Source: a virus. Taken from it: a stretch of 31,666 nt of DNA. The stretch is from positions 1 through 31,666 of IMG/VR virus record IMGVR_UViG_3300001851_000078. One strand, written 5' to 3'. Shown in pieces: positions 14,487 to 30,690 of the stretch (the stretch's first letter is position 1; the number at the start of each line of letters is the position of its first letter). The position numbers and the translations under genes are program-made. The notes beneath the pieces are model-generated. The model saw only the letters and a program-made list of their open reading frames with translations. It did no database searches and had not been told where the DNA came from.

Positions 14487-17189
14487 CTAATAGTATTGGC
14501 GGTCAACTGGAGCGTACTCTTCCTCCTCCTCGTCGAGCTTGGATTGGATAAAGCCACCCATTCGGAACCGCAATAGCGCCTGGGTCATCGAGTCGACCAA
14601 GTCGTCATGCTCTCCGTTCGGGAAAAGAGCGAACTCTTCGATTAGATCCTCAGCCCAATGCCGCGCCGGTATCCATATATATCCACTTGCGAACAGGTCA
14701 CTGATGGCGTTCACGCGGGACAGCTTGTCGCCAGTCCTCGATGTCGGCGTATAGTCGGACATCGGTATCCCCATTTTCCGCATGTCGTTCAACAGAGGCA
14801 GGCCAGCCGCCTTTGCTTCGATAATACAGGTGTCAGGCTGGAACTGCTTGTACTTCTCCAGCGCCTTAATTTTGAGGTCCGAATACTCCAACTTCCACTT
14901 CTGCGCATCCAGCACGATGACGTTGTAGATCGACTTGCCGTCCTCATTGGTGCTGGTGAACACGCCAACCGTCACGCAAGCTGAGTAGTCGGATCGGGTG
15001 TTCGCGGTATACGCTGTGTCCCACGACTGGATAACGTACTCGCACTTCGGCGGCGGAAGGTTATGGTCAATCTCCCCAAGTTCGATCGATCCGTCCTGCT
15101 TACGGATACTCCTCTGCCCCCATATTTTCCAGAACTCACGCTTGATGATGGCGCTCTCGTCGGACCTAGGGTCTTGCAGGTACTGGGCGTACCACTTCCA
15201 AGACGGGAGCGTGGCTTTCAGCTTCAGTAGTTCACTGACAGGCCATCTCTGCGGCCATAAAGAGTCGTAGGATGGCTGTCCATCTGCGTCAAGTACCTGC
15301 TTCCCGTTCTCATCCGTCTTCTCAAGTAATGCTGGCAGTTCGATAATTTCCCATTGATCGCCGTCTCGCTTGACCTTCATGTCATCCATCAACCTGCCGA
15401 CGAGATCGAATGGTGCCCAACGCTGCATCACGATGATGATCGACCCACCCGGTTCAATACGGCCACGGATAGAGGTGAACCAGTTGTATACCTTCTCGAA
15501 GTCCTCCTTCGATGGCATCTGGTTAGCAGCACCTTGGTTGACGATAGCCTGCTCGGATATGGGATCGTCCAGGATTAAAAGGTGCGCCCCGCGCCCGACC
15601 ACCGTGCCGCCAGCACCGACAGCGAAGTATCGACCACCCTTGTTTGTGTTCCAACGGCCCTTGGCTGACGAGTCCGCAGCAAGCGACACGCCAGGGAATA
15701 CCTTCTTGTAGTCCTCGGAGTCGACAAGGTTTCGGATCTTGCCGCCGAAGTCTTCAGCCAGAGACTTGACGTTCGACGCTTGGATGATGTGCTTTTCTGG
15801 GTGCTTGCCGATGTACCACGCTGGGAATAAATAACTTAGTCTTTCTGAGTTGTGCGTAACGATAAAGTTACGGCCACAAAGGAACAGCCCGTCGCTGGCC
15901 TCGACTTCAATGCAAACCGTATCCCCTCGACCATATGGTTCAACATAAAGCATCCTGAGGCCGAACTTCTTCGCGTCTCTACTCCGATCTCGCTTCCTCG
16001 GCAAAGAAGCTGCGTCTTGCATGAAGAAGGTGACTTGGTGGCAGTCCATATACCGAACTCCGTTAAGAACACCCTTCCGTGTGTTTATCGATGCCTTAAC
16101 TCCTAGGCTGTGGACTAGCGACGCAACCTGCTCTGCGATATTCCTATCAGTTGAATGGTACAGGCAGATTCCGCTCTTCATCACTTCGCCGTCTGTATCC
16201 ATCAATCCATTTAGCAAATCCATCCGCTGCCGAACTGACGAGAACAGGTACTCATCCGGTATATGCTTGTTCCTGATCTGCATGGTTTTGTGCAGCACAT
16301 TACGAAGACCTCGAAGAGTCCACCCCTTGCCGTCTCCGTGAGGAGTAGCATCAACCCCGCGCTCTCTAATCTTCTGGATGATGAACTCGGCATCTGGATA
16401 ACACTTAGTGATCGTATTGCCGCAACTGTTGCCATCGCCAATCCACACCCCAAAAACGTATGGGTCGATAGGCAGTTCTCGCTCTGGCAATTCTATTGGA
16501 CCCCAAGATGGAATCGCTGGCGGTCTCGATTCTCCATTAACACCGCTCTCTCTCGTATTTTGCCTGTCTGAAACCCAAGCAGATGTTCGGTTGGACCATT
16601 TTTTTGATTTTCGGTCAACGCGAACTGTCCAAACATGATTCTCGTCCGATAGGACGCTATATCCATCACTTGTAGTCGCTCGATACAGCGGTCTATCAAC
16701 GAACACTTGAGACTTGCCAATCACACGCGTCGGCTGACCGTCTACCCCGAAAACAAAATCGCCAACTTCAAGATCAACTATTCGCTTAAACCCAGATGGA
16801 GTCGGTATCGGCGTGTTTATTTCCAGAGCTTTGCCGAACCGAGGCGGAAGGCACACGATCGCGCGTACAGGCTCCCCGGCATCGATGCGATGAAATATCT
16901 TCTCCAGTTCATCGAAGTGCGGCCCTGGAATATTCCCCGGCCACATCTCGTTCACGAAGTCTTTGAAGAACAACCGGCACCGATCGCGAGTCTGCAGTTC
17001 CTTCAGCTTCGCCATCTTCTCAAACACGATCCGGCGCTTGTCGTCAGGCAAGCCCATGACCGCATCGTGCAGCGCCTGCGTGCCGATCTTCTGCTTAATG
17101 GCCCTCTGAATCTCCTCCATCGCGGCGAGTGATTGCCGCGCTCTCATGTCTGGATCTACGACAGCTTTCTTTTTCTTCAGTGGTGGCAC
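14487..17189 (-). CDS. terL: Terminase large subunit precursor with in-frame intein
   Basis: The 900-residue precursor contains a terminase of about 573 residues after removal of an intein (residues 121-447). The ATPase Walker A is LPPRFGK (114-120) continued by S448 after the intein. Walker B is HLLILDD (536-542). The RNase H-like nuclease has D724 (QSWDTAY), E791 (IIEAKA) and the HDDLVDS cluster (861-867). The enzyme pumps DNA into the prohead through the portal and cuts the concatemer. The start is GTG at 17189-17187, the first possible one after an in-frame TAA. A TATAAT box ends eight bases upstream. It is the first gene of the late operon; no small terminase gene precedes it. Confidence 0.95.
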   Translation of the reverse strand: MPPLKKKKAVVDPDMRARQSLAAMEEIQRAIKQKIGTQALHDAVMGLPDDKRRIVFEKMAKLKELQTRDRCRLFFKDFVNEMWPGNIPGPHFDELEKIFHRIDAGEPVRAIVCLPPRFGKALEINTPIPTPSGFKRIVDLEVGDFVFGVDGQPTRVIGKSQVFVDRPLYRATTSDGYSVLSDENHVWTVRVDRKSKKWSNRTSAWVSDRQNTRESGVNGESRPPAIPSWGPIELPERELPIDPYVFGVWIGDGNSCGNTITKCYPDAEFIIQKIRERGVDATPHGDGKGWTLRGLRNVLHKTMQIRNKHIPDEYLFSSVRQRMDLLNGLMDTDGEVMKSGICLYHSTDRNIAEQVASLVHSLGVKASINTRKGVLNGVRYMDCHQVTFFMQDAASLPRKRDRSRDAKKFGLRMLYVEPYGRGDTVCIEVEASDGLFLCGRNFIVTHNSERLSYLFPAWYIGKHPEKHIIQASNVKSLAEDFGGKIRNLVDSEDYKKVFPGVSLAADSSAKGRWNTNKGGRYFAVGAGGTVVGRGAHLLILDDPISEQAIVNQGAANQMPSKEDFEKVYNWFTSIRGRIEPGGSIIIVMQRWAPFDLVGRLMDDMKVKRDGDQWEIIELPALLEKTDENGKQVLDADGQPSYDSLWPQRWPVSELLKLKATLPSWKWYAQYLQDPRSDESAIIKREFWKIWGQRSIRKQDGSIELGEIDHNLPPPKCEYVIQSWDTAYTANTRSDYSACVTVGVFTSTNEDGKSIYNVIVLDAQKWKLEYSDLKIKALEKYKQFQPDTCIIEAKAAGLPLLNDMRKMGIPMSDYTPTSRTGDKLSRVNAISDLFASGYIWIPARHWAEDLIEEFALFPNGEHDDLVDSMTQALLRFRMGGFIQSKLDEEEEEYAPVDRQYY
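15849..16829 (-). mobile_element. Class 3-type intein with LAGLIDADG endonuclease in TerL
   Basis: A 327-residue intein interrupts the terminase P-loop between K120 and S448. It begins with Ala (ALEINTPIPTPSGF), not Cys or Ser, and ends VTHN before the +1 Ser. The class 3 signature is visible: Trp in block B (NHVWTV, W187, intein position 67) and Cys in block F (TVCIEVEASDGLFLCG, C426, intein position 306). Two LAGLIDADG motifs, YVFGVWIGDG (244-253) and LLNGLMDTDG (325-334), carry acidic residues at D252 and D333, so the homing endonuclease looks intact. Splicing should restore a standard GKS P-loop. Class 3 inteins use the block F cysteine as first nucleophile. Confidence 0.9.
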
Positions 17190-17244: not shown

Positions 17245-17385
17245 ATGTGGCGCAAACAAAGCGTAGAGATTGACCCAGACAAGTGGGCGCAAGCAAAGGC
17301 GCTCGCAGCAATTGACAGAAAAACCATTCGCGATTGGCTTGATGCCCTGATCGCGGCAGCGATTGAAAAGCGAAAGGGAGCGTGA
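17245..17385 (+). CDS. Small putative ribbon-helix-helix DNA-binding protein
   Basis: A 46-residue protein beginning MWRKQSVEIDPDKWAQAKAL and continuing with DRKTIRDWLDALIAAAIEKR. The short N-terminal strand (QSVEID) followed by two helices fits a ribbon-helix-helix repressor or a related Arc/CopG-type fold. It is the first gene of the rightward early operon, so it could regulate the adjacent divergent promoters. There is no clear ribosome binding site; the ATG lies eight bases after a TACAAT box. The TGA overlaps the next ATG (TGATG). Confidence 0.55.
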   Translation: MWRKQSVEIDPDKWAQAKALAAIDRKTIRDWLDALIAAAIEKRKGA

Positions 17386-17648
17386 TGGGACAAGACCCTG
17401 AAGTGATCGTATGTCGCATTTGGCAGAAAGCCTTTGGCGGTCCTACTCAGTGGCTGCGGTGGGCCGACGAAAGCCCTGACAACCCGCGCCGCATGTCGAT
17501 GCAGCAAGCCTGCGTCGAGATGGCGAAGTACTGGAACTGCACCGTCGAAAACGCACGCGAGTCGCTTCTCAAGCACGGATACGCATCGTCGCCGCTGCGC
17601 GACTGGCGGGTGGTTGGGCGGGGGTTTGATGAGGGGGAGGTATGGTAG
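17385..17648 (+). CDS. Early protein of unknown function
   Basis: An 87-residue protein starting MGQDPEVIVCRIWQKAFGGP. It contains a helical central part (MSMQQACVEMAKYWNCTVEN, ARESLLKHGY) and an aromatic C-terminus ending FDEGEVW. No family recognised. A GTG one codon upstream is an alternative start. The ATG overlaps the previous stop by one base, and the end overlaps the nuclease gene by seven bases, so it belongs to the recombination operon. A recombination accessory is a possible role by context only. Confidence 0.6.
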   Translation: MGQDPEVIVCRIWQKAFGGPTQWLRWADESPDNPRRMSMQQACVEMAKYWNCTVENARESLLKHGYASSPLRDWRVVGRGFDEGEVW

Positions 17649-18583
17649 CAATCACCTCCAACCCATCCGACCGTAAAGGCTTCGTTGGCGGAAGTGACAT
17701 CGCCCACGTCCTTGCACTGACGCCATACGGATGCCCGCGCCTGCTCTGGTATCGAAAGTCTGGCGTACAGCCTGATCGCCCATTCCAGATGTCAGGCATT
17801 ATGGAGATCGGAGTGGCGCTCGAAGACTACGTGGCCGACAAGGTGCAGGCACTGAAAGGATGGCGACTCGTCAAACGTGCTGCTCGTTCCGACAACCATC
17901 ATGGCGTGCATATCGATCGCGAAATTCAGAAAGCACGCGATACGCCTGGGATTGCCGAGATTAAGGTTGTTGGCGATCAGACGTTTTTTAAGTGGATGCG
18001 CCAAGGCGTTGACGTTGGCTACGTGCTGCAACTCCAATGGGGCATGAAGCTGTGGCAGCGGGACTGGGGCGCTATCTGTGCTTGGAACCGTGATGCTGGC
18101 GGCGACCCATATATCTTCGAGTTTGAGTACGATTCCGACCTGATGGCGCGTGTCACTGGAGAAGTAGACCTGTTTTGGGCCATGGTTGACAGCGGGAGAG
18201 TACCGCAGGTTCTCGATCCGCGAGACAGCCGGTGCGATGGCTGCGAGTATGGTGCGCTATGCAGGGAGCAGGAGTGGGAGAACGTAGCTGATAGCGGACT
18301 GGTCCAGATCGATATACCTGCGCTTGATCGCTGGCGCAATCTTAAACAAATAGCCAAAGAGGCTGAAGAAAGTGCTGATCAATTACGATCGGAGATTGAA
18401 GCCGCTATTGGCAATAATGAAACGGTGTTGGTCGGGACAACGAAGTTGACATTCCGTCCGCAGGAGTCGTGGCGGATTGACACTGACAGGCTGAAGAAAG
18501 AGTATCCTGACCTCGCCAAAGAATTGCAGTATCGGTCGTTGTCCAGGCCGCTGCGTGTGTCACAAATAAAGGAGAAAAAATGA
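17642..18583 (+). CDS. YqaJ/Cas4-like Fe-S PD-(D/E)XK exonuclease
   Basis: A 313-residue nuclease of the YqaJ/RecB superfamily, expected to resect DNA ends for phage recombination. The opening GFVGGSDIAHVLALTPYG is the usual YqaJ start. Candidate catalytic residues are E61, D92 (VHIDREI) and E106-x-K108 (AEIKVV), with Q130 in VLQLQWGM. Four cysteines, C31 and the late group C198-x2-C201-x5-C207, match the spacing of the iron-sulfur clamp in Cas4, AddB and Dna2 nucleases. The C-terminal helix region (EEAEESADQLRSEIEAAI) is charged. It overlaps the upstream gene by seven bases and the RecT-like gene by ATGA. Confidence 0.85.
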   Translation: MVAITSNPSDRKGFVGGSDIAHVLALTPYGCPRLLWYRKSGVQPDRPFQMSGIMEIGVALEDYVADKVQALKGWRLVKRAARSDNHHGVHIDREIQKARDTPGIAEIKVVGDQTFFKWMRQGVDVGYVLQLQWGMKLWQRDWGAICAWNRDAGGDPYIFEFEYDSDLMARVTGEVDLFWAMVDSGRVPQVLDPRDSRCDGCEYGALCREQEWENVADSGLVQIDIPALDRWRNLKQIAKEAEESADQLRSEIEAAIGNNETVLVGTTKLTFRPQESWRIDTDRLKKEYPDLAKELQYRSLSRPLRVSQIKEKK

Positions 18584-19278
18584 GTCCTCAAACAGAAGTA
18601 CAAACGGTTGTCGAAGAGGCACCAAAGAAACCGGCTACCATGAACGCGACCATCGACATGATGGAATCGATCATTAGCGCCACCGCCCGCCAACAGTACG
18701 AGCAGGCCGTGGCTGACCGCTACATGGCGCAGACCTACGCCAAGGGCGCTGGCATGAGCGAGGAAGACGCCCGCACGATCATCGCACTTGGTCGCGACTA
18801 CGGGTGGGGGCCTGCCCATGCGCTGACGCGGTTGTTTATGCAAGGAGGTCGGCCTCGGCTTTTCGCGGAAGCTCGTGCCAATATGCTGGCGCAGGCTGGG
18901 TACAAGTGGTTTCCTGTCACCCATAACGAGACGGAATGCACCTATCAGTTCAAGTACAAGGGTGAGTGGATGCTCGACGTGAACGACAAACCGCTGCGAG
19001 TGTCATTCACTATGAAGAACGCCGAGAAGGCTGGCTACATCCAGAACTCGCGGGGGAAAGACGGCAAGACCGGCAACTACGACAAGATCCCAGAAAACAT
19101 GCTGTTTGCCCGCATGATCACTAACTTCCACAAGTGGCACGCCGCCGAGGTTGACGGCGCAACACTCGCCGACCCGAACGAACTCCTCGAAGCGGTTGTC
19201 GCCGAGACGGAAAAGAATATCGCCGCGAAATCGGTCGATAAAGTCGAAGAACTGAAAGAGAGACTGCAGAATGCTTGA
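18580..19278 (+). CDS. RecT-like single-strand annealing protein
   Basis: A 232-residue protein that most resembles RecT/Bet-type annealing proteins: an N-terminal helical part, DRYMAQTYAKGAGMSEEDAR and IIALGRDYGWGPAHALTRLF, then a lysine-rich beta region (TYQFKYKGEWMLDVNDKP). The segment YDKIPENMLFARMITNFHKW resembles the conserved Y-x-x-x-P-x-x-ML-x-ARA-like region near the end of the RecT core. The C-terminal tail is helical and charged. Next to an exonuclease and an SSB-like gene, the call is supported by context. It would pair single strands during recombination or concatemer formation. Confidence 0.75.
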   Translation: MSPQTEVQTVVEEAPKKPATMNATIDMMESIISATARQQYEQAVADRYMAQTYAKGAGMSEEDARTIIALGRDYGWGPAHALTRLFMQGGRPRLFAEARANMLAQAGYKWFPVTHNETECTYQFKYKGEWMLDVNDKPLRVSFTMKNAEKAGYIQNSRGKDGKTGNYDKIPENMLFARMITNFHKWHAAEVDGATLADPNELLEAVVAETEKNIAAKSVDKVEELKERLQNA

Positions 19279-19687
19279 AGCAGATAAGTACTACACCGGC
19301 AAGTTCGCCGGGTTCGACATCGTTGCCGTTGGAACAAAAGGCACGCAAGCCGCCCAGTTCATGCTGGATATTCCTGGCGAGGGTAAACAGTCAACGCTGG
19401 TGTTTTTGGGCAACACCAAAGGCAGCGACGGCATGACAAACAACGAGCGGCTGCGCGACCGATTGATTGAATTTGGCTGCGATCGTAAGCGGCTGTCTGG
19501 GCCTGGGTGGTCAGATCATATCAAGATGACGCTCGACGGTAAGGACATCCAAGCCAAGGCTGAGGCGTACAACAACAAGATCAACCTGAAAGGGATCTAC
19601 GTCCCTGGAGAGGGTTCTGGCCTGAAGCCAGTAACGGTTGATACTTCTCCGTTTGGCGAAGAGGACACTGACTCGGTCCCCTTCTAA
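19271..19687 (+). CDS. Candidate single-stranded DNA-binding protein
   Basis: A 138-residue protein starting MLEADKYYTGKFAGFDIVAV, with beta-rich sequence in the first two thirds. The C-terminus is acidic and ends GEEDTDSVPF, closely resembling the acidic D/E-rich tail ending in PF by which SSB proteins recruit partners. Together with the upstream exonuclease and annealing protein this suggests an SSB or recombination mediator. The OB-fold itself is not provable by eye. It overlaps the annealing gene by eight bases and is the last gene before a terminator. Confidence 0.6.
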   Translation: MLEADKYYTGKFAGFDIVAVGTKGTQAAQFMLDIPGEGKQSTLVFLGNTKGSDGMTNNERLRDRLIEFGCDRKRLSGPGWSDHIKMTLDGKDIQAKAEAYNNKINLKGIYVPGEGSGLKPVTVDTSPFGEEDTDSVPF

Positions 19688-25188: not shown

Positions 25189-25521
25189 ATGACTAACGAT
25201 CAGTGCAAGCTGATAGCTACGAAGCTCTGTGGCTACCAAGTCCAAGTCTCACCCGCTGGCAAATACTACATCGTGACGGATGATGGGACGAGGCCACTCC
25301 CCGACTTTGAGGTTGATGCCGCAGAGACGCTGTCGACGGTGGAGGCGCTGTGCAAGAGTCGAGATTGGAGCATTTGCCTCGTTAAAGGCAAGGAAAACTA
25401 CATTGCTGGATTTGGCGGTGCTGGCGCTAGAAACACTACTATCACTGCCGCCATCGCCGCCTGCCTGCTGCAGATCGCGGAGGATGACTCGCCGACGAAC
25501 TGCCGAGAGGAGGTTGTTTGA
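25189..25521 (+). CDS. Phage protein of unknown function
   Basis: A 110-residue protein starting MTNDQCKLIATKLCGYQVQV. It shows beta-like parts (SPAGKYYIVTDDGTRPLPDF) and a helix-rich C-terminus (TTITAAIAACLLQIAEDDSP). The composition recalls small phage and plasmid proteins with a 'TAAIAACL-x-IAED' ending, a pattern seen in several unrelated phage early proteins, but no function is known to me. Its TGA overlaps the methyltransferase TTG (TTGA). Confidence 0.6.
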   Translation: MTNDQCKLIATKLCGYQVQVSPAGKYYIVTDDGTRPLPDFEVDAAETLSTVEALCKSRDWSICLVKGKENYIAGFGGAGARNTTITAAIAACLLQIAEDDSPTNCREEVV

Positions 25522-26342
25522 AACCTCTAGCTATTGATCTTTTCGCTGGATTAGGCGGATGGAGTGAAGGATTCCTGTCTGAAGGCTACCGCGTAGTTGG
25601 CTTCGACATCGAACGCCACCAGTACGGAGACGATAAATACCCGGCACAACTGGTTATCCAAGACGTTCTCACGCTACATGGGTCGCAGTTCAAAAACGCC
25701 ACTGTCATCGTCGCGTCGCCCCCGTGCCAGACGTACTCATTCATGGCGATGCCGTTCAAACTGGGCAAGCAGCGTGCTGCTGAGTATCGAAAGATGACGC
25801 AAGAACAAAGAGACGCCACGCTAAATGCTCTATTTAACGCCTGCTTCCGTATCCAGCGTGAAGCATCAGAAGCCGCTGGCAGGCACATACCTCTAATCGT
25901 TGAGAACGTGCGCGGGGCGCAAGAGTGGGTCGGCCCGTCGAAAGCGAAGTTCGGGTCATTTCACTTATGGGGTGATGTTGGCATGGTTGGGGATTCAGTG
26001 GTGGCTGGGAAGTTGAAATTAGGCGGTGGAGTTAGGCCATTCAGTCAAAGCAAGCAGGCTGGTCTATCAGTCCCTGCATGGGTCCCATGTGAATGCTGTG
26101 ATGAGTTCGTATGTACCATCCACAACCAACACGCATGTGATTGTCCGTGTCCTCCGATAGATGAGTGGGAAAAAGACCCGTATTCAGCAGGAAGCCAAAC
26201 AGCAGAAGCCAAACACGGGTGGTTCCATAAAGGAGCGGCTGCATATGGCTCTAAATCTAAAGCCAGAAAAGAATCATCAGCCAAAATGGCCAAGATCCCA
26301 TTCGCTCTTTCTCAATACATCGCGAGGTCTTTTAAGCCATGA
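25518..26342 (+). CDS. DNA cytosine-C5 methyltransferase
   Basis: A 274-residue enzyme that should add methyl groups to cytosine in phage DNA, probably against host restriction. Motif I is FAGLGG (9-14); the catalytic PC is in SPPCQTYSF with C70; the ENV motif is at 129-131 (VENVRGAQEW). Motif X-like residues close the protein (KIPFALSQYIARSFKP). A cysteine cluster at 191-211 (CECCDEFVCTIHNQHACDC) may bind zinc. It is shorter than typical Dcm enzymes. The TTG start overlaps the previous stop, with GAGAGGAGG upstream. No partner restriction enzyme is present. Confidence 0.9.
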   Translation: MKPLAIDLFAGLGGWSEGFLSEGYRVVGFDIERHQYGDDKYPAQLVIQDVLTLHGSQFKNATVIVASPPCQTYSFMAMPFKLGKQRAAEYRKMTQEQRDATLNALFNACFRIQREASEAAGRHIPLIVENVRGAQEWVGPSKAKFGSFHLWGDVGMVGDSVVAGKLKLGGGVRPFSQSKQAGLSVPAWVPCECCDEFVCTIHNQHACDCPCPPIDEWEKDPYSAGSQTAEAKHGWFHKGAAAYGSKSKARKESSAKMAKIPFALSQYIARSFKP

Positions 26343-27079: not shown

Positions 27080-27223
27080 ATGACCAAAAAAAAGAACGAG
27101 GCAGCAGTGTCTCTGGCTGCTCTCCGCAAGAAGAAGCTATCTCCTGAGCGCCGATCAGAAATAGCCAAGATTGCCGTCACGGCAAGATGGGCGAAACAGA
27201 AGCAGAAAGCAGCGCAAGCGTGA
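27080..27223 (+). CDS. Small basic helical protein
   Basis: A 47-residue protein starting MTKKKNEAAVSLAALRKKKL and continuing SPERRSEIAKIAVTARWAKQ. It matches the common 'L-x-P-E-x-R-x-x-x-A-x-x-A-x-x-A-R-W' pattern of small basic bacterial and phage proteins that may bind DNA. It is the first gene of the replication operon, two bases before the helicase ATG. Confidence 0.6.
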   Translation: MTKKKNEAAVSLAALRKKKLSPERRSEIAKIAVTARWAKQKQKAAQA

Positions 27224-27224
27224 T

Positions 27225-28652
27225 ATGCCGCCGCTCAAACTTCGCCAGTACCAAATAGACGACATCGAGCGCATTCGCGCTGAGATCAGGTCTGACAAGA
27301 AGCGTGTTGTCTACGTCCTCGCCACAGGGGGCGGGAAAACCGTCATCTCTGCCGAGATCATCCGCAGTGCGGTAGCGAAGGGGTCGAAGGTATTCTTTGT
27401 TGCTCACCGCAAGGAGTTGATCGACCAGACCAGCAACAAACTTCACGATTTCGGCGTTCGTCACGGCGTGATGATGGCCAATCACCCCCTACGCGACCCA
27501 AGCGCACCAGTGCAGGTTATATCGATCCAGACTGGAATACGCCGCGAACTCCCATACAAGCCGCACCTTGTGTTCGTGGATGAGTGCCATCGCATTGCGG
27601 CTGAGTCCTACAAAGACTTCCTGCTCGACTGCGGAGATCCTGTCGTCGTCGGGATCACCGCCACTCCTGTACGGGGAGACCTACAAGGACTCGGAGGGAA
27701 GATCTTCCAGTCTATGGTCGTTGGTCCGCAGATGTCATCGCTCATCCAGCAAGGGTTCCTAGTTAAGCCTCGCGTGTTTTCATGGAAGATCAACCTCAAA
27801 GGAGTGCGACTTCTCGGCGGAGACTACAATCAGAAGCAACTCGAAGAGAAGATGATCGACACGAAGCTAGTCGGCGACGTATACCGCGAGTGGGTAAAGC
27901 GCTGCTCGGATCGGTCCACTGTGGTCTTCGCGACCAGCATTGCTCACTCAAAAATGATCCTCGACGATTTTCTCGCCAACGGAGTCGCCGCAGAGCATAT
28001 CGACACAAAGACGCCCAAAGAGGACCGAGAAGCTGTTCTGTCTCGACTCGCCAGCGGCTACACGCAAGTCGTGTGCAATGTCGGGATCCTGACAGAAGGC
28101 TGGGATTGTCCTCGCGTTTCCGCAGTATGTATCGTTCGCCCGACTCGCTCAGAGTCGCTTTACTTGCAAATGGCTGGGCGGGCGCTTCGGCCATGGGGTG
28201 ACAAAACCGATTGCATCGTCAATGACCATGGCGGGGTAGCGCAGGAGTTCGGGACGCCGGACATGGACCGCGAATGGGAACTGGACGACACCACGATTTC
28301 AAAACCAGAGAAGTTGGATATCCGTGACAAAATCAAGGTCTGCCCGAAATGCGCCGAGGTCTACGATATTTCGGTTTACACCTGCATTTGTGGGTACCAG
28401 TTCTCCAAGAAACCAGACGATATTAAGTACGGAAGCGGCGAGCTTCATGAAATCGACTACAAAATCAAGCGAGAAGAAAAGTCCAAGCGTAAGGATTACG
28501 AGTGGTTCCTCCATCAGCAACACACGATGAAGAAAGCTGATGGGACTCCGTACTCACACGGATTTGCGTTTGCAAAGTATTTATCCAAATACGGCGAGAA
28601 ACCGTCCTGGTCGTGGCTAAAAGAGTGGAAGAAGAAAAACAATGTCAGCTAA
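27225..28652 (+). CDS. SF2 DEAD/DEAH-type helicase
   Basis: A 475-residue ATP-dependent helicase. Walker A is ATGGGKT (33-39), motif II is DECH (119-122), motif III TATP (145-148), motif V TEGWD (290-294) and motif VI QMAGRALRP (315-323). A zinc-ribbon with CPKC (373-376) and CICG (387-390) lies after the second RecA domain. The closest general type is the RecG/UvsW/YqhH-like phage SF2 family, which remodels forks or recombination intermediates. I choose ATG 27225 rather than 27171, because the longer form would overlap the previous gene. It overlaps the primase gene by 11 bases. Confidence 0.92.
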   Translation: MPPLKLRQYQIDDIERIRAEIRSDKKRVVYVLATGGGKTVISAEIIRSAVAKGSKVFFVAHRKELIDQTSNKLHDFGVRHGVMMANHPLRDPSAPVQVISIQTGIRRELPYKPHLVFVDECHRIAAESYKDFLLDCGDPVVVGITATPVRGDLQGLGGKIFQSMVVGPQMSSLIQQGFLVKPRVFSWKINLKGVRLLGGDYNQKQLEEKMIDTKLVGDVYREWVKRCSDRSTVVFATSIAHSKMILDDFLANGVAAEHIDTKTPKEDREAVLSRLASGYTQVVCNVGILTEGWDCPRVSAVCIVRPTRSESLYLQMAGRALRPWGDKTDCIVNDHGGVAQEFGTPDMDREWELDDTTISKPEKLDIRDKIKVCPKCAEVYDISVYTCICGYQFSKKPDDIKYGSGELHEIDYKIKREEKSKRKDYEWFLHQQHTMKKADGTPYSHGFAFAKYLSKYGEKPSWSWLKEWKKKNNVS

Positions 28653-30690
28653 CCGAGTCGTCGAAATCAACTCTGTGCGCCCAATCGTTCTCGATTCGAC
28701 GCAACCTCTCACGTCGTCCGACCGTGAGAAAATCTGTCAGGAGCACTGGCTCACCAACGCCGACATCGACGCAGCACACATAACCCGAGTCAACGACGCG
28801 ACAGGCCGTGAACTCACCGGGTGGATGAAACGGAACTGCGCCGGAATCTATATCCCATACCCAACGCTCGACGGGCGCAGCAGCTACTACTTCAGGATCC
28901 GGCGAGACGTGCCGGATATGACGATCCAACTCGACGGGTCGACGAAAATATCCCGCAAATACGCCGCCCCGTATGGATCCAGAAACCACATCTATTTCCC
29001 CTCCGGCGTCACGCAAGCCCAACTATCCGACGCCACACTCCCGGTAATCGTCACCGAGGGCGAGTACAAAGCCATGGCGCTCTGGCGGCTGGCAAACCAC
29101 AAAACCGACACCCCACGATTTATCCCCATCGGGCTGGGTGGCGTGGACTCGTGGCAAGGGCGTAACGGGAAAACTCCCCTGCCGGACGGCTCATCAACCG
29201 ACTCCTACGGGATCATCCCTGACATGTTCCGCGTAACGTGGTCGGAGCGAAACGTCATCATCGCGTTCGATTCAGACTGGAAACGCAATACGAGCGTCCG
29301 AGCAGCCAAGCGCCGACTATCCGACGAACTCAAAACAGGCGGCGCTAAAGTCGTCACGCTGAACTGGGACGAGCGGGACGGCAAGGGTATCGACGACTGG
29401 CTAGCCACGGTCGGACCGGATCCAGTCCTGTCAGCCATCAACGGCATCAACTGGGACATCACAACCGGCTGGCTTTCTATGCTCCAAGTCGACGACAAGG
29501 GCAAGCCAGTCAAAAACGTCCTTAACGTCGTCACCGCGCTCACTCTCGCCCCTGAGTGGGAGGGCGTTATCGCCTACAACCAATTCACCGCCGCAATCCA
29601 GACCGTCACCCCTCCCCCATTCGGCGATAAACACCGCAGCCGATCAATCCTCAGCCCAAACCGACAAGACTGGACCGACGCCGACGATATCCACGCATCC
29701 ATGTGGCTGCAATCCAAGGGACTAAACGTCAGCAAGGAGATGGCGTCAGATGCAATCCATGCAATCGCCGACCTCACGCAGTTTCACGTCATCCGAGACT
29801 ACCTGAACTCGCTCTCGTGGGACGGCGATAAGCGAATCGATACGTGGCTTCAAGACTACATGGGCGCGGATCCATCGGCATACCTGTCGAAAATCGGAAA
29901 AATGTGGCTTATCTCCGCCGTGGCTCGCGTTTTCAACCCCGGATGCCAGGTTGACCATATGCTCGTCTTCAAAGGCTCTCAGGGGCGTGGAAAATCGACA
30001 GCTTTGTCCGCTTTATGCGGCGAGGACTGGTTTTCCGACAACCTGCCGAACAAATTACACGAAAAAGACGCCTCCCAGCACCTATCCGGCAAGTGGATCA
30101 TCGAAATCGGCGAACTCAGCCAGATGAAATCCAACGAGGTCGAGGAGATCAAGCTGTTCGTCTCCAGGAAAATCGACAAATACCGACCCAGCTACGGTCG
30201 CCGCGACTGCTCATTCCCACGCCAGTGTGTATTCGCCGCCTCAACCAACTCCGACGAATTCCTACGTGACGAGACAGGCAACCGGAGGTTCTGGGTCGTA
30301 CCCATAAACGGAGTCGACGTGCGCGGCATCGCGGAAAACCGGGACCAGATATGGGCCGAGGCTGTCCAAATGCTCCGCGATGGCGAAAAATGGTGGTGTA
30401 GCGAGCCGTGGTTCATCGAAGCACAGGAAAATTCATCGTCGAACTACATGATCCTCGACCCGTGGCACGAGCAGATCAAGAATTACGTCAAAGGGAAAGA
30501 GCGGGTGTTCGTTAATGACGTGCTCCTTGAGGTTTGCCGTGTCTCTGACACCTGGACCAAGAACCATCGGGACCGCGTTTGCTCCACGCTGAGAAAATTA
30601 AAGTTCGTTCGTAAACGCATAAAAGACAACGGTGGGTACTTTTTTACCCCGGCGCGAGCAACCGATCGGGAGGACGAGGAGGAGGAGTAG
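28642..30690 (+). CDS. Primase (DUF3854/TOPRIM) fused to VirE-type helicase
   Basis: A 682-residue replication protein. The N-terminal half has a TOPRIM-like domain: VIVTEGEYKA (135-144, E139) and IIAFDSDW (D210, D212). The C-terminal half is a virulence-associated-E (VirE) SF3-type ATPase: Walker A GSQGRGKS (445-452), Walker B WIIEIGEL (485-492), sensor AASTN (532-536) and GNRRFW (546-551). The tail is acidic (EDEEEE). Such fusions prime and unwind DNA at the origin of phages and mobile elements. It ends 24 bases before a strong terminator and next to the candidate origin. Confidence 0.92.
   Translation: MSANRVVEINSVRPIVLDSTQPLTSSDREKICQEHWLTNADIDAAHITRVNDATGRELTGWMKRNCAGIYIPYPTLDGRSSYYFRIRRDVPDMTIQLDGSTKISRKYAAPYGSRNHIYFPSGVTQAQLSDATLPVIVTEGEYKAMALWRLANHKTDTPRFIPIGLGGVDSWQGRNGKTPLPDGSSTDSYGIIPDMFRVTWSERNVIIAFDSDWKRNTSVRAAKRRLSDELKTGGAKVVTLNWDERDGKGIDDWLATVGPDPVLSAINGINWDITTGWLSMLQVDDKGKPVKNVLNVVTALTLAPEWEGVIAYNQFTAAIQTVTPPPFGDKHRSRSILSPNRQDWTDADDIHASMWLQSKGLNVSKEMASDAIHAIADLTQFHVIRDYLNSLSWDGDKRIDTWLQDYMGADPSAYLSKIGKMWLISAVARVFNPGCQVDHMLVFKGSQGRGKSTALSALCGEDWFSDNLPNKLHEKDASQHLSGKWIIEIGELSQMKSNEVEEIKLFVSRKIDKYRPSYGRRDCSFPRQCVFAASTNSDEFLRDETGNRRFWVVPINGVDVRGIAENRDQIWAEAVQMLRDGEKWWCSEPWFIEAQENSSSNYMILDPWHEQIKNYVKGKERVFVNDVLLEVCRVSDTWTKNHRDRVCSTLRKLKFVRKRIKDNGGYFFTPARATDREDEEEE

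Follow-up and report, generated by a model that had tools for sequence, protein, structure and literature searches.

A lambda-Exo/YqaJ-type phage exonuclease with a conserved, probably metal-binding four-cysteine clamp, encoded in a cassette with RecT-like and SSB-like proteins

Introduction

What kind of enzyme opens a phage recombination operon when its nuclease resembles lambda Exo and carries the four cysteines (Cys) of the Cas4/AddB-type iron-sulfur nucleases? This question is raised by positions 17642-19687 (+ strand) of the virus record IMGVR_UViG_3300001851_000078, a stretch of 31,666 bases from a virus of bacteria that was analyzed as a whole and is called the window below. A first-pass annotation, made from the letters of the DNA, had described three overlapping genes there as a recombination operon for an exonuclease with an iron-sulfur clamp, an annealing protein and a protein like the single-stranded DNA-binding proteins (SSB). 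In this study, we reach the reading, with a probability of about 0.82, that the locus is a phage DNA-end-processing and annealing cassette whose exonuclease comes from a clade with a metal-centred Cys clamp. Both its sequence and its predicted fold make the nuclease a lambda-Exo/YqaJ exonuclease with the clamp added, rather than a Cas4 protein.

Results

The nuclease gene (17642..18583, + strand) encodes 313 amino acids (aa) with Cys at positions 31, 146, 198, 201 and 207, of which C31 (codon at 17732) and the group C198-x2-C201-x5-C207 (codons at 18233, 18242 and 18260) make up what we call the Cys4 set; these residues and positions are exactly those first annotated. A single Cys ahead of the nuclease core and three behind it are the Cas4/AddB-type arrangement. 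Because CxxCx5C occurs in 2 of the 286 stop-to-stop frames of at least 60 aa in the window, one of them being the nuclease gene, the motif alone is weak evidence; the strong evidence lies in relatives, where it is conserved and coupled to C31. We scanned IMG/VR with a DNA pattern for Cys at position 31 within the GGSD...LW block that made no demand downstream, and each of the 15 loci found had CxxCx5C at the matching place of its open reading frame (ORF). A control pattern with Ser/Thr at that position, which unlike the Cys pattern also requires Pro, gave at least 120 ORFs (115 of them distinct, and 115 extending 200 residues or more past the motif), and CxxCx3-8C was found downstream in none of 120 among the matches listed. 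Both patterns demand particular codons (GG, S/T-type, D, A, Y/W-type, L and W) and so miss divergent Cys4 members. A usable start codon was present in 14 of the 15 Cys-pattern ORFs, which reduced to seven representatives at 95% identity, locus L028 included; L025, lacking a start codon, was left out. In the alignment of these seven, with members down to 27% identity, the four Cys are invariant.

The same pattern gave eight stretches in the genome collection, seven of them chance frames and one a real YqaJ (L163), so that over IMG/VR and the genome collection all four Cys are present in 15 of 16 real YqaJ ORFs bearing the first one. All four are absent in 11 aligned phage relatives from GenBank (L004, L005, L008, L010-L012 and L165-L169), a sample of more than 36 matching records. 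Moreover, the Cas4-domain profile phrog_1990 recognizes all 7 Cys4 members (best 2.6e-15), as against 3 of 31 relatives with no Cys (best 1.5e-5). These comparisons indicate that the Cys4 set is a genuine feature and sets a YqaJ subfamily apart. In a maximum-likelihood tree of 55 nucleases, which took in representatives rather than every control and used the alignment columns for window residues 8-190 minus that of C31, all 13 Cys4 rows lie on one side of a single branch (96/89; 94% of 200 bootstrap trees), with L163 outside this clade. One clade points to a single origin of the Cys4 nucleases within YqaJ, and since the tree is unrooted, gain and loss of the clamp are not separable in it.

That the nuclease belongs to YqaJ is indicated by Pfam YqaJ (PF09588), which matches at 2.9e-10 and 41.1 bits against a curated cut-off of 22, and by the RecE-like profile phrog_434 (2.6e-41). 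The match of phrog_1990 is weaker (1.2e-7, residues 31-215), and NCBIfam TIGR03033, at 8.4e-9, reaches 35.7 bits and stays under its cut-off of 68.05 bits. At E 0.001, nothing in the window is matched by the Cas4 family profile (Cas_Cas4, PF01930), which does match 8 of 14 control genomes. Single-sequence searches of PDB with the nuclease, annealing and SSB-like proteins returned only rows that we took for chance (best E 0.08), so that placing the nuclease required a profile. The profile of eight YqaJ relatives found LHK-Exo (3.8e-10), mimivirus R354 (7.3e-8) and lambda Exo (1.4e-4), and that of the seven Cys4 members alone found LHK-Exo (6.6e-8), lambda Exo (0.011) and chance rows of 14-3-3 proteins, with no Cas4 sequence. 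In the eight-sequence alignment, from which (as from the tree) the L006 and L007 nucleases were excluded for want of a sensible alignment, the catalytic residues D92, E106 and K108 are invariant, as are E61 and Q130; across 39 sequences, E61, D92, K108 and Q130 are. The initial choice of D92 and E106/K108 as nuclease residues thus agrees with the alignment, which adds E61 and Q130.

The predicted model of the nuclease has a predicted local distance difference test score (pLDDT) of 88.6, and its closest solved structure is LHK-Exo (Foldseek 6.8e-10). Fold comparison gave Z 18.5 for LHK-Exo (root-mean-square deviation 4.8, 186 residues aligned) and Z 17.0 for lambda Exo (3.1, 180 aligned), followed by Cas4 SSO0001 (4ic1; Z 13.5, model residues 2-212), the DUF3799 nuclease 3l0a (Z 13.1, residues 1-219), 7mi4, the Cas4 of a Cas4/Cas1/Cas2 complex (Z 13.1), and Dna2 (Z 9.9, residues 12-218). 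The lambda Exo rows stop at model residue 186-187, before the C198-C207 triad, and the Cas4, 3l0a and Dna2 rows extend beyond it, to 210-224; those of LHK-Exo also extend, to 215-217. The clamp geometry expected from the letters is in this way supported indirectly, through matches to LHK-Exo and lambda Exo and then to Cas4, 3l0a and Dna2.

The second gene (18580..19278, + strand) overlaps the nuclease gene by 4 bases and encodes a 232-aa protein that is matched by phrog_4171 (RecT-like) at 1.9e-6. Its relative in L022, 48% identical, is matched by the same profile at 8.6e-17, as are 11 of 11 members of the annealing-protein alignment. Profile comparison with 12 canonical RecT proteins in hhalign gave a probability of 90.8 and E 1.2e-6 over 115 columns, and a search of phage records returned 27 matches, all from Gordonia or Arthrobacter and with a RecT-like annotation in every case but one. 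From these profiles, the protein appears to be a RecT-like single-stranded DNA annealing protein, as the first-pass annotation had proposed; phrog_4171 and the hhalign comparison bear this out, and its likeness to RecT is established indirectly, by comparison of profiles.

The third gene (19271..19687, + strand), overlapping the second by 8 bases, encodes 138 aa. The predicted model (pLDDT 71) runs through three strands, helices, two strands and a tail, which is the order of an oligonucleotide/oligosaccharide-binding (OB) fold, and the tail (residues 114-136) lies below pLDDT 50. The protein terminates in DTSPFGEEDTDSVPF, with SVPF as the final residues, and the tails of its relatives end in DDDLPF, EDDLPF, DDDVPF and similar. 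The tails of bacterial SSB are likewise acidic and end in PF. The best match to the model among solved structures is PrgE (E 9.9e-5, Z 8.3), a plasmid protein also solved with DNA; the next entry has Z 6.7. In the viral model library BFVD an uncharacterised phage protein comes first (1.1e-11), and 9 of the 50 matches listed are named DUF669 (best 4.6e-6) and 2 SSB. The profile phrog_378 (SSB) reaches a best E of just 0.2, in 4 of 19 relatives, and the protein found no match among phage records, nor did its profile among PDB sequences. With moderate confidence, the model suggests a DUF669-like SSB with an OB fold; the early description of an SSB-like protein with an acidic tail ending in PF is in keeping with the OB-fold matches and the C-terminus.

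Searching with the SSB-like profile, we obtained 38 loci, two of which are the near-copy of the window and the contig of L002, and the order of Cys4 nuclease, RecT-like and SSB-like genes is the same in 37 of them. The 38th, L180, starts at the SSB-like gene, its upstream neighbors lying beyond the contig; the L187 nuclease, cut before the first Cys, and the RecT-like gene of L182, split over two frames, were both kept in the count of 37. This synteny and the overlaps support the view that the three genes (17642-19687, + strand) form one operon. Two loci are built otherwise: in L026 and L036 the Cys4 nuclease is followed by one or two other ORFs and then by a canonical RecT (Pfam RecT at 1.4e-34 and 2.7e-55), and the SSB-like profile has no match in either locus.

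It appears that the annealing gene is exchanged within the cassette. The analysis took in 42 three-gene loci, some contigs being represented twice, which make 22 distinct cassettes. There are 85 cassette pairs more than 80% identical in both nuclease and SSB-like protein, and in 28 of these the RecT-like proteins are less than 40% identical. For example, in L179:902-3218, L189:56-2392, L191 and L183, RecT-like proteins of 39-40% identity are flanked by nucleases that share 96-98% and SSB-like proteins that share 90-96% of their residues. At the DNA level, the alignment of L179 and L189 opens with 960 bases of 100% identity. From there until the nuclease gene ends, identity is 80-85%; it drops to 33-51% in most of the RecT-like gene and recovers to 78-91% in the SSB-like gene, and the 540 bases that follow are again 100% identical before identity decays at the end of the alignment. 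It looks like a mosaic exchange in which the middle gene was replaced by recombination in its flanks.

Discussion

The cassette type is already known, the exonuclease-annealase-SSB set of the SXT element being an example, and the clamp on a YqaJ exonuclease is the new part, absent in the best-known relatives. In SXT, Ssb-Bet-Exo (s064-s066) are likewise three adjacent genes for a lambda-Exo/YqaJ exonuclease, an annealing protein and an SSB. However, their order is ssb-bet-exo, the annealing protein is Bet and the Ssb is of the bacterial type, and the word cysteine does not occur in the main text of that paper (PMC3118119). It is reported there that SSB and Bet stimulate Exo in vitro, and that recombination in cells was no higher with SSB added (PMC3118119). 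Enterococcus phiFL1A, Listeria A118 and Marinitoga virus 2, with pairs of the RecE-RecT/lambda Red type, have RecT directly after a YqaJ exonuclease as well, but they lack the Cys4 set and have no SSB annotated directly behind RecT. In Firmicutes phages, YqaJ or DUF3799 beside recT is described as typical, with SSB among the neighbors (PMC8093625). Arthrobacter phage Kukla has RecE-like, RecT-like and SSB genes in this order, its RecT-like protein being 27% identical in the alignment; in contrast to the window, its nuclease is without the Cys4 set and not sensibly alignable, and one gene stands between RecT and SSB. The 'Cas4 family exonuclease' of Arthrobacter phages was considered as the same thing and rejected: Prairie gp36 adjoins RecT and is without the Cys. 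No description of a clamp on a YqaJ exonuclease was found in titles and abstract openings of openly licensed PMC literature.

By analogy, the clamp most likely binds a metal, an iron-sulfur cluster as in Cas4 and AddB, zinc being possible. Its role is most likely structural, because every single Cys-to-Ala change in Sso0001 gave insoluble protein (PMC3466216). The same report places one Cys before and three after the core in Cas4, AddB and Dna2, and iron-sulfur in the four-Cys sites of Cas4 and AddB (PMC3466216). The rival that deserves most attention is a site holding zinc instead of a cluster, as a purely structural staple. The DUF3799 (PF12684) RecE-like nuclease of PDB 3L0A, with the same four-Cys arrangement, had zinc in that site of the crystal (PMC3466216), and it is one of the fold matches of our model (Z 13.1). 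On the other hand, its authors allow that this zinc may be an artefact (PMC3466216), and phrog_1990, a Cas4-domain profile that picks out every Cys4 member, favors iron, without being proof. We regard zinc as a possible but unlikely occupant. In family the enzyme of 3L0A and the Cys4 nucleases differ: the Cys4 nucleases scanned with Pfam all match YqaJ, and only L022 touches DUF3799, at E 0.044. Of the iron-sulfur clamp first proposed, the conserved and coupled four-Cys set stands; the assignment to iron in particular is a likelihood by analogy, with zinc possible in view of 3L0A.

Two further readings concern the enzyme itself. Both the clamp and the fold likeness would suit a phage Cas4-family protein that serves CRISPR spacer acquisition or counter-defence and not recombination, the more so as Cas4-family nucleases are already known in phages and a Campylobacter phage Cas4-like protein was reported to stimulate spacer acquisition (PMC5704561). 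We consider this very improbable, given that PF01930 is unmatched in the window, that the closest family is YqaJ/RecE and the closest folds are LHK-Exo and lambda Exo, and that RecT-like and SSB-like genes come after the nuclease in 37 of the 38 loci obtained with the SSB-like profile. Family, synteny, tree and fold support the Cas4/AddB-type Cys4 arrangement but not the Cas4 identity. That the four Cys are incidental, with neither metal nor function, is hardly credible: the chance CxxCx5C in one other frame of the window and the lone first Cys of L163 would fit it, but 15 of 15 coupled ORFs against 0 of 120 among the control matches listed, and invariance in members as low as 27% identity, argue strongly otherwise.

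Several observations weigh against the clamped recombination cassette that we prefer. A number of the 15 coupled ORFs are near-copies, L028 being close to the window and L024 being the contig of L002. L163, from Burkholderia paludis (YqaJ at 1413-2489), has Cys at the C31 place and no CxxCx5C, and phrog_1706 ('CRISPR/Cas system associated') discriminates poorly, with 5 of 7 Cys4 members and 6 of 31 no-Cys relatives matched. Pfam RecT (PF03837) does not match the annealing protein at E 1, and its profile has no match among PDB sequences. The SSB-like protein has no family match in Pfam, PHROGs or NCBIfam, its model is moderate, and a Z of about 8 is near the level of models without a clear match.

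The working that we infer from families and predicted folds begins with a lambda-Exo/YqaJ-type exonuclease that would trim the 5' strand back from double-stranded ends. The 3' strand that this exposes may then be coated by the RecT-like protein and annealed to a complementary strand. The small OB-fold protein would bind single strands, and its acidic PF tail could recruit partners in the manner of SSB. With a metal centre between them, the Cys before the nuclease core and the three after it would hold the domain together at its two ends.

An enzyme of the lambda-Exo type that bears a Cas4/AddB-type clamp connects two groups of nucleases usually handled separately, and relatives with and without the clamp offer a natural comparison for what it adds. 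The compact, linked exonuclease-annealase-SSB set is a candidate recombineering module. The apparent exchange of the annealing gene bears on the specificity of the exonuclease-annealase partnership and, occurring inside a fixed cassette, makes that specificity testable. More speculatively, and as a wider reading that we hold to be rather doubtful, the Cys4 YqaJ clade might link lambda-Exo-type phage exonucleases to the clamp nucleases of Cas4, AddB and DUF3799, either as keepers of an ancestral clamp lost in most lambda-Exo relatives or through one gain on a lambda-Exo scaffold. Through the clamp, the resection enzyme might then respond to iron or to redox state, and the annealing partner might be exchangeable with the exonuclease unchanged, partner specificity being looser than in lambda Red or RecET.

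The rightward operon begins opposite the terminase gene and, by ORF analysis, comprises five genes with every neighboring pair overlapping. Two small, translation-coupled ORFs 5' of the nuclease lie outside the operon as first drawn: a 46-aa ORF (17245..17385, + strand) overlaps the next by 1 base (TGATG), and an 87-aa ORF without assigned function (17385..17648, + strand) overlaps the start of the nuclease gene by 7 bases. Both are present in 1 of the 10 loci searched for them, namely L002, with 84% identity for the 46-aa and 61% for the 87-aa ORF. The operon had also been supposed to be self-sufficient and independent of RecA; a profile search gave no RecA match within the 31,666 bases of the window, and the virus record may be a fragment.

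The terminase large subunit (14487-17189, - strand) contains a homing-endonuclease insert (Hom_end 2.1e-5, LAGLIDADG_3 1.1e-5), apparently an intein that spans roughly residues 120-447, with limits set by eye. At 25518-26342 (+ strand) there is a candidate C5 cytosine DNA methylase, for which only the N-terminal part of the profile is matched (residues 6-91, 1.2e-7), so that a divergent or partial protein is possible. Towards the right end of the contig follow a ResIII/SF2 helicase (27171-28652, + strand; 4.8e-26) and a VapE-like primase-helicase (28642-30690, + strand; 1.8e-81).

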